Shown one piece after another: positions 59,029 through 64,000 of a stretch of 64,000 bases of DNA. Position 1 is the first letter of the stretch. Each line of letters starts with the position of its first letter. Source of the DNA: Cohnella laeviribosi DSM 21336 (GTDB taxonomy: Bacteria > Bacillota > Bacilli > Paenibacillales > Paenibacillaceae); contig NZ_KB899812.1 of NCBI RefSeq assembly GCF_000378425.1, positions 1 through 64,000 of the forward strand, written 5' to 3'. Under the pieces are notes generated by a model, which was not told the DNA's origin, did no database searches, and worked only from the letters and a program-made list of their open reading frames with translations. The position numbers and the translations under genes are program-made.

Positions 59029-59067
59029 GCCCCCCGGAGGAAATCCCGGGGGGCAAGGTTATTTTTT
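59029..59067 (+). terminator. Intrinsic terminator of the permease gene
   Basis: A GCCCCCCGG/CCGGGGGGC stem (59029-59037 with 59046-59054), then AAGGTTA and six Ts (59062-59067). Its right side overlaps the end of cheA. Confidence 0.85.
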
Positions 59068-60858
59068 GGCCAGCTGCACCAGCTCGATCGGGTTCACGAT
59101 TAAGACCACCTGTCCGTCGCCCAGCAAGGTGGAGCCGGAAATGCCGGGTATGCCCGCCAGGTGCCCGTCCAACGTTTTCATGACGAATTCCTGTTCGTTT
59201 TTCAGCTTGTCCACGACAAGGCCGAATTTTTCCGGCCCATTGGAGACAATAACCGTATTCAACTCTTCATGGTCCGTCGTTCTTTCGCCGAGCAGAAACA
59301 GCTTGCTCAGCCATTCGATGCCGATGACATCCCCGCGGAGATGCGCGAAATACTTGCCGTTGAACGCATGGATCTCCTCGGGTTTGATTTTGACGGTCTC
59401 GGAAATGTAATCGATGGGAATGATGTACGTTTCGTTTAATACGCGGACCGGCAGTCCTCTGGATACCGCAAGCGTTAGCGGAAGCTGAATGACCATTTTC
59501 GTGCCCCTGTCCACTTCGCTGTCAATCCTGATGCTTCCGTTGATTTTCTCGATATTGCTCTTCACGATATCCATCCCGACCCCGCGGCCCGACACCTCGG
59601 TAATTTGGCCGGCGGTGCTGAACCCCGGCAGAAAGATCAGGTTGATTGCCTGGCTTTCCGTCATGTTTTCCGCGTCTTCTCTTGAAATCAAGCCTTTATC
59701 GACGGCTTTCTGCTTCAGAAGCCGGGCGTCCATTCCTTTTCCGTCGTCTTCAATCTCAATATAGGCATGTTTGTTTTTATGGTACGCCCTCAGGGTGATT
59801 TTCCCCGTTTCGCTTTTTCCCTTCCTTTTTCTTTCTTCCGGGGGCTCGATCCCATGATCGGCCGCATTTCGAATCAAATGGACGATCGGATCGCTGATCT
59901 GCTCGACGATCGTTTTGTCGATCTCCGTATGTTCGCCTTCCATGCGCAGTTCCATTTTCTTGCCGGTGCTTTGCGAAATATCGCGAACGATTCGGGGCAT
60001 TTTTTGAAATACCGTCTTGACCTCGATCATTCTCATGGACAGGATGGCATTCTGCAATTCATCCGATATCCGGTTGATGGAAGCGCCGACCCTTTTCACT
60101 TCCTTGGACATTTCCGGAAGGTCGTATTCGACGTTTAATTTGGCGGCGATGTGCATAAAGGCATTTTTCGCGATCAGCAATTCGGAGATCATATTCATCA
60201 TCTTGTCAAGCTTGTCCTGGCTGACCCGTATGCTCTGCATGCCTGGCGTCAACGCGGCTTTTTGCGGCGGCTCGGGACGAGGATGGAATCTCCCGGAATC
60301 GGGCGCCGAATCCATGCCGCCGGTTTCCAAAGCGGACTCCCCGGATAAGGCTCCCGTCGGCTCCCCGGACGCCGGTGATTCCACGGAAGGCGCTTCGCCG
60401 GCGGAACTTTCCCGCTGTTTTTGCTTGTTTAAGATCGCATTGGTTTTGCCGGCAATCTCATCCATGCTGCGTTCATCGTCAAATTCGACGACCAGTTCCG
60501 TTGCCGGATCGTGCTCTTCGACTTTCCGGGCCAGCCGGATCAGGGAATGGCTTAACAAATCGGCGCTGATCAGCAGATGATCGATAAGTTCGGCATCCGC
60601 CTCAACGTTCTTCTCCCGAACCGCAACCAACAGCGTCTCCATGTCGTGGCAGAGCCTGACGATAAAGTCCAACCCCATAAAGGAAGAACCCCTTTTGATC
60701 CCGTGCACCCTGTTGTATAGGTCATCCGCCAGTTCGGGATCGTCGGAAACCTCGAGCTTGAGGACCAGCTTCTCGAGATCTTCCCGGCTTGTCTTCCACT
60801 CGTCCAGAAGCGTCCTTAACAGGCCCGCATCCCCGGAATGAAAAGCATATCGCATCAT
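59059..60858 (-). CDS. cheA: Chemotaxis histidine kinase CheA lacking a P2 domain
   Basis: A 599-residue kinase. HPt (P1) domain with phospho-acceptor H52 (RVHGIKRGSSFMG), an unstructured Ser/Pro/Glu-rich linker (about 145-215), dimerisation P3 (SQDKLDKMMNMISELLIAKNAF), ATPase P4 (HLIRNAADHGIE, EDDGKGMD, SGRGVGMDIVKSNIE) and CheW-like P5 (about 460-599). No P2 response-regulator-binding domain can be read between P1 and P3. The start is ATG 60858 (GGGAGAG 5 bases upstream) or the next codon. Last gene of the chemosensory operon. The separate HPt-P2-STAS protein may supply the missing part. Confidence 0.92.
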   Translation of the reverse strand: MMRYAFHSGDAGLLRTLLDEWKTSREDLEKLVLKLEVSDDPELADDLYNRVHGIKRGSSFMGLDFIVRLCHDMETLLVAVREKNVEADAELIDHLLISADLLSHSLIRLARKVEEHDPATELVVEFDDERSMDEIAGKTNAILNKQKQRESSAGEAPSVESPASGEPTGALSGESALETGGMDSAPDSGRFHPRPEPPQKAALTPGMQSIRVSQDKLDKMMNMISELLIAKNAFMHIAAKLNVEYDLPEMSKEVKRVGASINRISDELQNAILSMRMIEVKTVFQKMPRIVRDISQSTGKKMELRMEGEHTEIDKTIVEQISDPIVHLIRNAADHGIEPPEERKRKGKSETGKITLRAYHKNKHAYIEIEDDGKGMDARLLKQKAVDKGLISREDAENMTESQAINLIFLPGFSTAGQITEVSGRGVGMDIVKSNIEKINGSIRIDSEVDRGTKMVIQLPLTLAVSRGLPVRVLNETYIIPIDYISETVKIKPEEIHAFNGKYFAHLRGDVIGIEWLSKLFLLGERTTDHEELNTVIVSNGPEKFGLVVDKLKNEQEFVMKTLDGHLAGIPGISGSTLLGDGQVVLIVNPIELVQLAKK

Positions 60859-60924
60859 ATGCACTCTCCCAACTGCACGCATCATCGATTCCATGACCCG
60901 ACGAGGGACGTTGCCCTTGTTCGG

Positions 60925-61755
60925 TCATCTCGGTTTTGAATAAACGATGCCGTCTCCGATCCTCTGCATGCGATAGGCCGAAGAGATCCTTCCGACAGAT
61001 TCGGAATGGCCCAAAAAGATGATGCCCCCAGGATTCAGGCTTTCGTAGAAATCGGCCAAAACCGCCTTTCTCGATTCGTCGTCAAAGTAGATCAGGCAGT
61101 TTCGGCAAAAGATAAAATCGCAGCCCGTAATATGGCCGACGGCATCCGAATCCATCAAATTGATTTTCCTGAATTGGACGAACTTCTTGACGTCGGGATT
61201 GACCCGATACGATCCATCCTGTTTCGTAAAATATTTTTTCAAATATTCGGGAGGCACATCCCGGACAGACCTGTGTTCATAAACGCCGATCCTTGCCGTA
61301 CGAAGCACGTCCGTATTGATATCCGAGGCAACGATTTGCAAATTCCAGGTTTCGGGTTCGTCCAGCATTTCCTGAAGGATGATGGATAAGGTGTACGGCT
61401 CCTCCCCCGTCGAACAGGCGGCGCTCCAGATCTTGAGGTTACGGTTGTTGCTCTTGTTCTTTTCCCTTACGACCATCGGGAGCACTTCTTCGGCGAAATT
61501 TCGAAGCTGCGGATAGTCCCGGAAAAAATACGTTTCATTGACCGTAAGCTCGTTGATCAGTCTGTCGAATTCGGCCGAATCCGTGGAGAACTTCAGCATG
61601 CGGTAGTAATCGTGAATGCTGTCCAACTGCAGCATTTCGGCCCGCTTTTCAAGCCGTTTCTGGACGTAATACTTTTTATTCCGCTCGTAGAAGATTCCCG
61701 TTTTTCTATAAACCAACTTTACGAATTTATCGAAAAGGTCGTCGGACAAAACCAT
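60925..61755 (-). CDS. cheR: Chemoreceptor methyltransferase CheR
   Basis: Transfers methyl groups from SAM to glutamates of chemoreceptors. The 276-residue protein has the N-terminal helical domain (YYVQKRLEKRAEML), the SAM-binding motif WSAACSTGEEPYTLSI, NETYFFRD, CDFIFCRNCLIYFD and GGIIFLGHSESV. ATG 61755 has GGAGAG 12 bases upstream and lies 4 bases after the CheY-like gene. cheA follows by 66 bases. Confidence 0.95.
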   Translation of the reverse strand: MVLSDDLFDKFVKLVYRKTGIFYERNKKYYVQKRLEKRAEMLQLDSIHDYYRMLKFSTDSAEFDRLINELTVNETYFFRDYPQLRNFAEEVLPMVVREKNKSNNRNLKIWSAACSTGEEPYTLSIILQEMLDEPETWNLQIVASDINTDVLRTARIGVYEHRSVRDVPPEYLKKYFTKQDGSYRVNPDVKKFVQFRKINLMDSDAVGHITGCDFIFCRNCLIYFDDESRKAVLADFYESLNPGGIIFLGHSESVGRISSAYRMQRIGDGIVYSKPR

Positions 61756-61759
61756 TTCA

Positions 61760-62188
61760 TCACCGATCTCTCCGGGAGGCTGCAATCGTCTCTCGAATCG
61801 CTTCCCGCCATCGTTCCAATTTTTTGACCGAATCATTCACGACTTCCAATACCTGCTCGTTGCTTTTGAACGGCTTGACGAGATAGCCGTTCGCGCCGAG
61901 CTCCAGGCAAGTCAAGATCCGGTCCAAGGTCGAATGTGCCGCCATCGCAATCACCTGCGTCAAAGGATCGTATTCCCTGATCCTCCTCAGAAATTCCATG
62001 CCGTCGATCTTTGGCATCGTCATATCCGCAAGCACGATGTGGTATTTCTTCTTTTGGAACATGTCCAGGGCATGAGCGGGATCCGCGCAGAGCTCGACCT
62101 GGCTGTATCCGGCCAAAACGAACGTTTCGTGGAGCCGTTCCGATATTGCCGTATCCTCATCCACAATCATGATGCTGTATCCGCTCAT
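61760..62188 (-). CDS. CheY-like single-domain response regulator
   Basis: A 142-residue receiver with no output domain: acidic pocket IMIVDED, phospho-acceptor D55 (VLADMTMPK), the Thr/Ser switch replaced by Ala-His-Ser (MAAHSTLD), and the KP motif (YLVKPFKSN). It has about 20 extra C-terminal helical residues. ATG 62188 has GGAGG 8 bases upstream. Lies between the HPt-P2-STAS and cheR genes, so it is the likely phosphate acceptor of this pathway. Confidence 0.92.
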   Translation of the reverse strand: MSGYSIMIVDEDTAISERLHETFVLAGYSQVELCADPAHALDMFQKKKYHIVLADMTMPKIDGMEFLRRIREYDPLTQVIAMAAHSTLDRILTCLELGANGYLVKPFKSNEQVLEVVNDSVKKLERWREAIRETIAASRRDR

Positions 62189-62202
62189 TTCCCAAGCCTC
62201 CA

Positions 62203-63630
62203 TTACGTTTCATCTGCCGCAAACGAAATACCGCCCCCCAGCGCCGCGTCCGTTTCCGTATCGAACAGCTCGAAAGGTTCGATCGCACGAATGGAATCGA
62301 ATATATTGACCAGCCTTTTCCGCAAGGAATGGCGAACAATAAGGCGCACCGCAATCCCCATGTCCCGAAGGCGCCTTTTCAGCCCGATCAGCCGGTTCAG
62401 TTCGGATTCATGAATCATCTCAAGCCGGCTGAAGTCCAATAACAAGCTGCGCGTGCCGGATTTGTCCATCCGTTCGACAAATCCTTCGAGACCCTCCATA
62501 AAGGAGGCATGTTTGGCTATGTAAATTTTGTAGAAGTATCTTCCTCTGGCATAACCGTATGCTTTCTCGAACAGCTCCACATATTTTTGGCGGAGGGTTT
62601 GGACAAGCTTGCCGTCTAAGCTCCTTTTCCCGCCCGCCGCATCCAGACACAGGCTATAAAACGATTCGATTTCCGGTTTCAGGTCATAACCCGTTGCATC
62701 GGGCGGGATGAGGCCGGCCGCTTCCAGATTTTTTCGATATTGCTCGCGGACGAGCTCGGCATATTCCTCCCGAGCGAGGTTGCCCGGATCCTGAAACAGA
62801 ACGGGACGCATTTGGGGGAACTCTTGAAAAAAAACGTCAAAAAACCGGCGGCTTTCCAGTCCGAACGAATCCGCCCGATTCAGCATCCGATGCTCGGTGA
62901 GGTCGGAGATGGCGATTTTCTCGACATAGGTCACATCGAAATAGGTGTATAATTCGGCTTCTTCCAAGTCCGACTCTATAATCATGAACAGAGACGAAAG
63001 GTTCGGGTCGGCCGAAGCTCCGTATAGATCCTCGTCGGATACATTGGTATAGACAAGCGAGCCGACATCCTTGACCTGGTTAAAAATCATGAAAAGGATA
63101 GGGGAAACCATCGGAATATCGTCGCTGAACGAAATGCAGACGCCGTAGCGATTGGCCCCCGCCCGCTCCGTTCCTTTTAATGAGCTGACCAACCGATCTT
63201 CCCGGGCCGGATTCGTTCCGCCGCTTCCCGTTTCCGGATTTGCGTTCAGGATTCGATCGATTTCCTCTTCCAGCAGACCGGCGGCATGAGCGAATTCGTC
63301 GCGGCTTTCGTGGCCGGTCGTGGTTTTTTTCGACTCGAGCAGTTGTTTGACATGGTCCAACCCGCTGAAACACAATTGCAGAATCTGGCCGTCCAGGCCG
63401 ATTCGGCCCTTTCGGACCATGTCCAGCATGTCCTCGATCTTGTGCGTCAGGCTGCCTATATCCTCGTATCCGATCATTTGCGATGAACCTTTGACGGAAT
63501 GAAAGATCCTGAACAACGCGTTCAAATCGTCGATCGAGTAGCCGGCTTCCAACCGGATCAGGCATTCTTCCGCTTGCTGAAGCCATTCTTCGGTTTCCTC
63601 AAGATAGGTCATATATAGCGAATCCATCAT
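62203..63630 (-). CDS. HPt-P2-STAS protein of the chemosensory cluster
   Basis: A 475-residue protein. Residues 1-125 are an HPt domain with H44 (FRIFHSVKGSSQMIGYEDI). Residues about 170-260 resemble the CheA P2 response-regulator-binding fold (YGVCISFSDDIPMVSPILFM, IFNQVKDVGSLVYT, IESDLEEAELYTYFDVTYV). About 110 residues of unknown helical sequence follow. The C-terminus (about 375-470) resembles a STAS/anti-anti-sigma fold (SGTRSLLLDFSRLEMIHESE, GLKRRLRDMGIAVRLI). There is no kinase domain. ATG 63630 has GAGGG 7 bases upstream. I know no characterised protein with this order of domains. Confidence 0.8.
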   Translation of the reverse strand: MMDSLYMTYLEETEEWLQQAEECLIRLEAGYSIDDLNALFRIFHSVKGSSQMIGYEDIGSLTHKIEDMLDMVRKGRIGLDGQILQLCFSGLDHVKQLLESKKTTTGHESRDEFAHAAGLLEEEIDRILNANPETGSGGTNPAREDRLVSSLKGTERAGANRYGVCISFSDDIPMVSPILFMIFNQVKDVGSLVYTNVSDEDLYGASADPNLSSLFMIIESDLEEAELYTYFDVTYVEKIAISDLTEHRMLNRADSFGLESRRFFDVFFQEFPQMRPVLFQDPGNLAREEYAELVREQYRKNLEAAGLIPPDATGYDLKPEIESFYSLCLDAAGGKRSLDGKLVQTLRQKYVELFEKAYGYARGRYFYKIYIAKHASFMEGLEGFVERMDKSGTRSLLLDFSRLEMIHESELNRLIGLKRRLRDMGIAVRLIVRHSLRKRLVNIFDSIRAIEPFELFDTETDAALGGGISFAADET

Positions 63631-63688
63631 GTTACCGCCCTCGCGAAGCCGCCAACGGCCATTTTGATGCATGCTCGCGCTGCAACCA

Positions 63689-64000
63689 TCAGCATAGATG
63701 AACAGCCTTAACAATTTCGTCGGCAATCCGGTAGGATGGAACGACGATTTCGGCTCCGCCTCTTTCGATTGCCGCCCTCGGCATCCCAAAGACGATCGCC
63801 GTGGATTCATCTTCCGCAATCGTGACGCCTCCGGCCGCTCGGATTTTCACCATGGCGTCGGCTCCGTCGTCGCCCATGCCGGTCATCAGGACGCCGACCA
63901 CTCTTTTGCCGCCGTATGCCCTGAGCACGGATTCCATGGTCACGTTCACGCTGGGCATGAATGGGGTCACGGGGCTGGCCGAAAGCCGAAGCATTCTGCC
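63689..64000 (-). CDS. cheB: Chemotaxis methylesterase CheB, C-terminal part (runs off right edge)
   Basis: The visible 103 codons are the C-terminal end of the CheB methylesterase domain: SASPVTPFMPSVNVTMESVLRA, the catalytic-Asp loop GVLMTGMGDDGADAM, AEDESTAIVFGMPRAAIERG and VVPSYRIADEIV. The receiver domain and the catalytic Ser and His lie beyond position 64000. First visible gene of the minus-strand chemosensory operon; 58 bases before the HPt-P2-STAS gene. Confidence 0.93.
   Translation of the reverse strand, partial: GRMLRLSASPVTPFMPSVNVTMESVLRAYGGKRVVGVLMTGMGDDGADAMVKIRAAGGVTIAEDESTAIVFGMPRAAIERGGAEIVVPSYRIADEIVKAVHLC

Follow-up and report, generated by a model that had tools for sequence, protein, structure and literature searches.

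We analysed the first 64,000 nucleotides of a 205,682-base contig (NZ_KB899812.1) from the soil bacterium Cohnella laeviribosi DSM 21336, whose genome has a completeness score of 99.99%. This 64 kb stretch is referred to below as the window. At its right edge, on the minus strand, lies a non-standard chemosensory gene cluster in which the genes follow one another in transcription as cheB (its end), HPS, cheY, cheR and cheA. HPS is the name we use for a kinase-less protein with the domain order HPt-P2-X-STAS. It is 475 residues long (62203..63630, with the ATG at 63630) and is encoded in one operon with a 611-residue CheA (59059..60894). A first-pass annotation, made from the letters of the sequence, had described both proteins and placed HPS four genes upstream of cheA. 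The distance is in fact three genes, with cheY and cheR between.

The domains of HPS are those that the first-pass annotation had named. Pfam assigns residues 16-99 to the Hpt family (4.4e-14; 63337..63591), with H44 in the motif FRIFHSVKGSS, and residues 163-243 to the CheY-docking P2 family PF07194 (62905..63147). The P2 match (3.7e-4, 20.9 bits) falls just short of the Pfam cut-off of 23 bits in the window protein; all 13 of the other HPS proteins scanned exceed it, a set that leaves out L133-L135 and the frame-broken L041 piece, which itself has no P2 match. In the alignment, each of the 17 HPS proteins has a full HPt site (H48/K51/G52/H67/E70, E. coli-type numbering). Residues 4-248 of HPS align with a halobacterial CheA model, and when the PDB was searched by sequence the HPt part alone gave matches. 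The Pfam scan of the full protein contains no kinase core, CheW or STAS match. Between P2 and the C-terminal domain lies X (62548..62868), about 107 residues to which no family is assigned; comparison with HPt, STAS and P2 profiles and with the X of g287 proteins found no homology. The HPS proteins of L133 and L134 likewise carry an insert at this position, with homology shown for little of it. An AlphaFold model of full-length HPS, built from three rows, had a predicted local distance difference test score (pLDDT) of 40 and was not used. A split or frame-shifted kinase gene is ruled out as the origin of this arrangement: STAS stands where the kinase would be, and two genomes from the genus g287 contain relatives collinear with both the HPt-P2 and the STAS parts.

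The C-terminal domain (62239..62547) is clearer by structure than by sequence. The STAS profile PF01740 scores 12.9 bits (E 0.096) against the last 232 residues of HPS and 14.9 bits (E 0.024, cut-off 22.6) against the last 120, covering profile positions 19-106 of 106. When the whole genome is scanned with this profile, HPS ranks sixth of eight, below five matches above the cut-off. A single-sequence AlphaFold model of residues 362-464 has a pLDDT of 75 and a beta-alpha-beta-alpha-beta-alpha order. In Foldseek its first match is Bacillus subtilis RsbS (E 0.012, probability 1.00), with nothing reaching 0.001, and close behind it are some unrelated enzymes with lower TM-scores (amylosucrase, second at 0.013, and O-GlcNAcase at 0.016). 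The top ten rows of a VIA-align comparison are STAS chains or the STAS parts of transporters (Z 8.1-9.1, 87-94 residues aligned), and unrelated folds appear from Z 7.8 down. Because Z values near 8 can also arise between unrelated folds, the profile evidence matters here. A profile of the C-termini from the window, Paenibacillus cisolokensis and family f56 matches nine STAS sequences over 54 columns (P 5e-6); the same profile gives P 0.049 against HPt and P 0.74 against P2. On the model and these comparisons, the assignment of the C-terminus to the STAS fold holds. At the position of the SpoIIAA phosphorylation site, S58, a serine is found in the window and P. cisolokensis proteins (HESEL), and the f56 proteins read EPADL, EAADL or EGKDI. 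The lack of a serine conserved in f56 speaks, tentatively, for a docking role over a phosphorylation switch.

CheA also has the composition first described for it. Pfam finds Hpt at residues 25-109 (1.3e-10), H-kinase_dim at 220-287, HATPase_c at 336-474 and CheW at 480-607, and a motif check recovers the N, G1 and G2 motifs of the ATPase domain. The Hpt and dimerisation matches are separated by 110 residues, the latter part of which is largely low-complexity, and no P2 match is found in the protein at E values up to 5. The idea of a P2 domain hidden in the CheA linker is rejected on this lack of a match. Residue numbers depend on the start chosen: the CheA histidine given earlier as H52 is H64 in the 611-residue open reading frame (ORF) and the CheY aspartate given as D55 is D60, while H44 of HPS stands as it was. 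In the alignment of HPt domains, the P1 domain of CheA (60565..60822) retains H64 and the Lys, His and Glu of the site and has Arg for Gly at His+4, so that HGIKRG replaces the H-x-x-K-G of its relatives. This Arg is shared with P. cisolokensis, unlike all other His-bearing sequences aligned. The nearest kinase core in the tree is that of L078 (75% identity, support 99). The L078 CheA, for which L112 gives the full sequence, carries two HPt domains, both with histidines; the second is absent from the window CheA and, by eye, has Arg for His in P. cisolokensis. The Gly-to-Arg change and a second HPt that is lost or His-less would be expected if phosphotransfer were shifting from CheA to HPS, and the window looks like an intermediate state in the division of CheA and HPS. 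Two further CheAs are encoded elsewhere in the genome, in open frames of 713 and 680 residues.

The operon belongs to a wider class in Bacillota, for which we chose as marker a protein with three CheW domains (L002 5948-7435, where L002 is the stretch of the window locus that runs past the window edge). Searching 398 genomes drawn from the phylum with this 495-residue protein gave 37 loci in at least 36 genomes, including that of the window. In at least 34 of these genomes the match covers at least 463 of the 495 residues; G503 and G660 have partial matches in frames of about 500 residues. The usual gene order is double-MCP (methyl-accepting chemotaxis protein), triple-CheW, CheB, often a HEAT-repeat protein, CheR, CheY and CheA. 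All 37 loci were annotated by pairwise profile search with an HPt match threshold of 1e-3. Eight were left out of the counts that follow: L041, in which HPt and kinase lie in two frames (L084, from the same genus, is one fused frame); L074-L077 and L092, in which the stretch has no CheA; and L079 and L082, which are cut by a contig end. G503, whose operon lies on two contigs (L103 and L037), is counted once, and the kinase of L098 is in two frames.

The 29 classed loci comprise 12 that are split, 15 that are fused and 2 that have both forms (the window and L073); family f56 later yielded three more of this last kind. In the split loci a separate protein carries HPt and P2 and is 287-304 residues long (387 in the longest frame of L080). 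None of the 12 accompanying kinases has an HPt match at 1e-3 or an HPt motif, and most of the nucleotide-binding motifs searched for are retained in them; all 15 fused CheAs have the HPt motif. The motif pattern misses the window's own P1, and its absence therefore counts only together with the profile search. The histidine position of the degenerate P1 is Asp in L039 and L040 and Lys in L080, and L081 has a receiver domain in that place; the other eight split kinases have about 90-135 residues ahead of the core and were left out of the HPt alignment. Over the 17 loci whose HPS is unbroken, the HPt histidine is missing from 12 kinases and kept in 5, namely those of the window and the four f56 loci. 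In an unrooted tree of 28 kinase cores the states cluster, requiring 4 changes against a shuffled mean of 10.6. We leave the number of splits unclaimed because the tree has long branches and several open forks.

Family f56 supplies the closest parallels to the window. Four of nine f56 genomes searched, from two genera (G615 and G694; G692 and G693), have an HPS operon that also carries genes of the Rsb type: immediately ahead of HPS and its CheY stand genes for RsbR-, RsbS- and RsbT-like proteins, a HisKA kinase and an ATPase protein. In L073 (G615), the genes between CheB and HPS encode proteins like RsbR (STAS 9.9e-14) and RsbS (STAS 6.1e-11), an ATPase resembling RsbT, a HisKA kinase, and a protein that combines an RsbT-like ATPase domain with a weak match to SpoIIE (0.0013, below cut-off). 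The G694 counterpart of this last protein is short or frame-broken. The HPS proteins of G692 (475 residues) and G693 (472 residues) align collinearly with window HPS in two stretches, 8-247 (E-values of 7e-11 and 5e-11 in a five-sequence set) and 341-446 (2e-4 and 3e-4), and so share the HPt-P2-X-STAS plan. X is missing from the HPS proteins of G615 (376 residues) and G694 (383 residues), and their blastp alignments with the window protein extend over HPt-P2, or a portion of the HPt, and no further. The CheY next to HPS is of one type across the window and all four f56 genomes: the window CheY matches these neighbours at 8e-34 to 1e-34 and the other regulators of the f56 operons at 2e-13 or weaker. 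The f56 operons contain several response regulators and the window operon one CheY.

No match to rsbR, rsbS or rsbT was found in the window operon. Across the other HPS loci, Rsb queries matched in G660, where RsbRST-like genes lie 1.8 kb from HPS and are not counted because an ORF on the opposite strand comes between, and weakly in L080 (5e-7; a 324-residue ATPase-type ORF more than 5 kb away). The window genome as a whole has one RsbT-like gene and two HisKA-RsbR fusions. The RsbT-like gene (131 residues) stands beside a 524-residue HisKA-RsbR fusion (L136 2329-4228), about 105 kb from the operon. Judged by eye and by size, none of the five above-cut-off STAS matches in this genome looks like a separate RsbS, so that no direct partner was found for the STAS domain of HPS.

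Closer to home, HPS is rare. In 37 genomes of the genus, matches beyond HPS residue 253 occur only in the window genome; the other genus matches fall in the HPt-P2 half, and almost all of them are in frames as long as a CheA. The C-terminal half was found in 2 of 295 genomes of the family Paenibacillaceae, the window's own and, as a frame-broken copy, one of the 294 others, and conservation in the family, suggested earlier as a check, is accordingly poor. Nothing in the 10 genomes of family f100 matched past HPS residue 244. Among plasmids, 38 records matched, none across more than 80% of HPS, and the best 10 of the 38 all lie within residues 2-242. The P. cisolokensis copy is 65% identical to window HPS in its best segment. 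In the unbroken stretches, the ratio of nonsynonymous to synonymous substitution rates (dN/dS) between the window and P. cisolokensis is 0.36 and 0.24 for two parts of HPS, 0.30 for CheY, 0.24 for CheA P1 and 0.10 for CheR. The HPS ratios show purifying selection on this protein between the two species.

Bipartite forms of CheA have been described. A CheA without P2 is nothing unusual: Berry et al. 2023 (PMC10542144) report that nearly 52% of CheAs have none and that the Hpt of some is encoded by its own gene within the operon. They state that an Hpt set free in this way remains functional, and describe CheA3 and CheA4 of C. sphaeroides as acting together like a single CheA. As in the bipartite CheA of that account, the window has a separate gene with an intact HPt in the kinase operon, and at 12 of the 16 further loci where HPS is unbroken the kinase has no HPt. 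Unlike it, HPS adds P2 and STAS, and the kinases of the window and of the four f56 loci have an HPt of their own. The CheA3/CheA4 pair of Cereibacter (Rhodobacter) sphaeroides, as described in PMC10542144 and the abstract of PMC6829392, similarly distributes its functions over two proteins of one operon, one of which phosphorylates the HPt of the other. CheA3 ends in CheW and has remnants of kinase domains, whereas HPS has neither and ends in STAS, and CheA4 does not have the P1 that the window CheA has. CheS of Sinorhizobium meliloti is reported (PMC12654446) to be a STAS-only protein that binds CheA and acts at the CheA-CheY contact. Both are cases of STAS working beside CheA and CheY in a chemosensory cluster; CheS is a separate single-domain alphaproteobacterial protein and the STAS of HPS is fused to HPt-P2, and the two are likened by description, not by sequence. 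The RsbR-RsbS-RsbT stressosome shares the STAS fold, and its module is present in the four f56 operons; it differs in that the module is absent from the window operon and the HPS STAS has no phosphorylatable residue conserved across the group. In the open-licence literature searched, neither an HPt-P2-STAS protein nor a che operon containing RsbRST turned up. The HPS locus is a new form of bipartite CheA, of a recurring kind that is rare in its own family.

We lean, by a modest degree, towards the reading in which the phosphotransfer arm of CheA (P1-P2) has become a protein in its own right, HPS, with a STAS docking domain attached. In this mechanism, the soluble MCP-like protein with its two signalling domains would control CheA through the triple-CheW scaffold. 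The CheA ATPase domain would phosphorylate H44 of HPS in trans, and H64 in CheA's own P1 is probably still phosphorylated too. The P2 domain of HPS would bind the adjoining CheY (61760..62203; a 147-residue single-domain response regulator, Pfam Response_reg 2e-27), and the phosphoryl group would pass to D60, the phosphoacceptor indicated by alignment. STAS most likely helps to hold this CheY, or HPS itself, in the signalling complex in the manner of CheS. We infer the phosphorylation in trans, the transfer to the window CheY and the role of STAS; phosphorylation in trans of a separate HPt is the best reading and fits all HPS loci. The first-pass annotation had proposed a relay from the HPt of CheA to a second HPt and on to CheY. 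Direct His-to-His phosphotransfer is not the usual chemistry and 12 of the 16 other kinases have no HPt histidine to relay from, both of which disfavour the relay.

Several observations weigh against the separate-arm reading. Most of the P1 site survives in the window CheA and the HPt sites of the four f56 CheAs are complete, so HPS need not be the sole donor at these loci and may have a second role beside P1. STAS (PF01740 or PF13466) is above the Pfam cut-off in none of the 14 HPS proteins scanned, with a sub-threshold match in 4 and none listed in 10. The C-terminus of the L036 type, which is the largest subgroup, gives no signal against the STAS profile (P 0.35), nor, pooled with others, against the window and f56 STAS (P 0.05). 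The P. cisolokensis copy of the operon (L023 1-6053) is frame-broken in both HPS and cheA, which means either that this species can do without the system or that its assembly contains errors. The breaks in P. cisolokensis and the want of the C-terminal half in 293 of 295 family genomes might also be taken to mean that HPS is a decaying, functionless remnant of a second CheA. We regard this as very improbable given the full HPt site, the low dN/dS and the collinear relatives in G692 and G693. The retained H64 raises a further alternative, in which the P1 of CheA serves CheB and other regulators and HPS forms a side branch or phosphate sink, a parallel donor that serves or drains one CheY. The four f56 CheAs, with intact HPts and several response regulators per operon, would suit such an arrangement; it cannot be the general role of HPS because 12 HPS loci have a kinase without the HPt histidine, and with one CheY only in the window operon we think it quite unlikely.

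The remaining alternatives concern STAS. Its use as a partner-switch contact, raised in the first-pass annotation, gains circumstantial support from the RsbRST genes of the four f56 operons, and these operons favour such a role; the CheS-like role is favoured in that HPS mostly occurs without Rsb genes. A link to the stress switch would have the HPS STAS bind an RsbT-like kinase or join an RsbR/RsbS-type complex, so that array and switch control each other. The position of RsbR, RsbS and RsbT ahead of HPS, the rank of RsbS as first Foldseek match of the window STAS model, and the Rsb-type genes elsewhere in the window genome are in keeping with this. The window operon itself has no Rsb genes, Rsb queries found little at the other HPS loci, and the Ser at the SpoIIAA site is confined to the window and P. 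cisolokensis and does not extend to f56, all of which make the link doubtful. A more specific proposal, which we consider unlikely, makes HPS a hinge in the four Rsb-bearing genomes, with HPt-P2 in a cytoplasmic chemosensory array and STAS docked in an RsbRST-type complex from the same operon. If that were true, receptor activity would set the stress switch and vice versa, and the window operon would have kept the hinge but no switch genes. With a STAS fusion and RsbRST genes side by side, these four operons offer a concrete place to test signal exchange between array and stress switch. For the separate-arm reading of HPS, the interest lies in a chemosensory class in which kinase and phosphotransfer arm can stand apart: since a single gene family contains fused and split forms as well as loci that have both, the step-by-step evolution of a two-protein CheA becomes testable.

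The listed cheR frame (60925..61836, minus strand as all others; up to 303 residues; Pfam CheR 2.8e-59) overlaps cheY, and its real start is possibly further in. The window CheY reads MAAHS at a position where P. cisolokensis reads MTAHS and L073 MTGYS, the usual receiver Thr being replaced by Ala. The window contains the C-terminal part of cheB (63689..64000, by Pfam); the gene and the operon continue past the edge through the triple-CheW and double-MCP genes (L002 4790-9394). The operon starts with the 646-residue MCP protein (L002 7454-9394), followed by the triple-CheW protein. The MCP-like protein has five MCP-signal stretches and, by eye, two receptor-tip motifs; its Pfam listing contains no sensor domain, and such a protein is the first gene in most operons of the class. 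Divergent to this first gene is an ORF that by eye resembles a tyrosine recombinase (L002 9960-10535), which may hint at horizontal acquisition.

Further features were seen at other loci. A HEAT-repeat protein stands between CheB and CheR in L038 (13163-13798, Pfam HEAT_2 1.1e-17) and other loci; it is about 650 residues long in the four f56 operons and was not seen in the window operon. An ORF in L078 (7948-8718), between CheY and triple-CheW, is by eye a ParA-like ATPase; ParA-like proteins position cytoplasmic arrays. In G687 (L125 1304-3366), a 445-residue kinase ORF overlaps one of 242 residues that is HPt-P2-like and has Arg where the histidine would be; this is either a CheA divided in two or an ordinary che cluster with a frame break.

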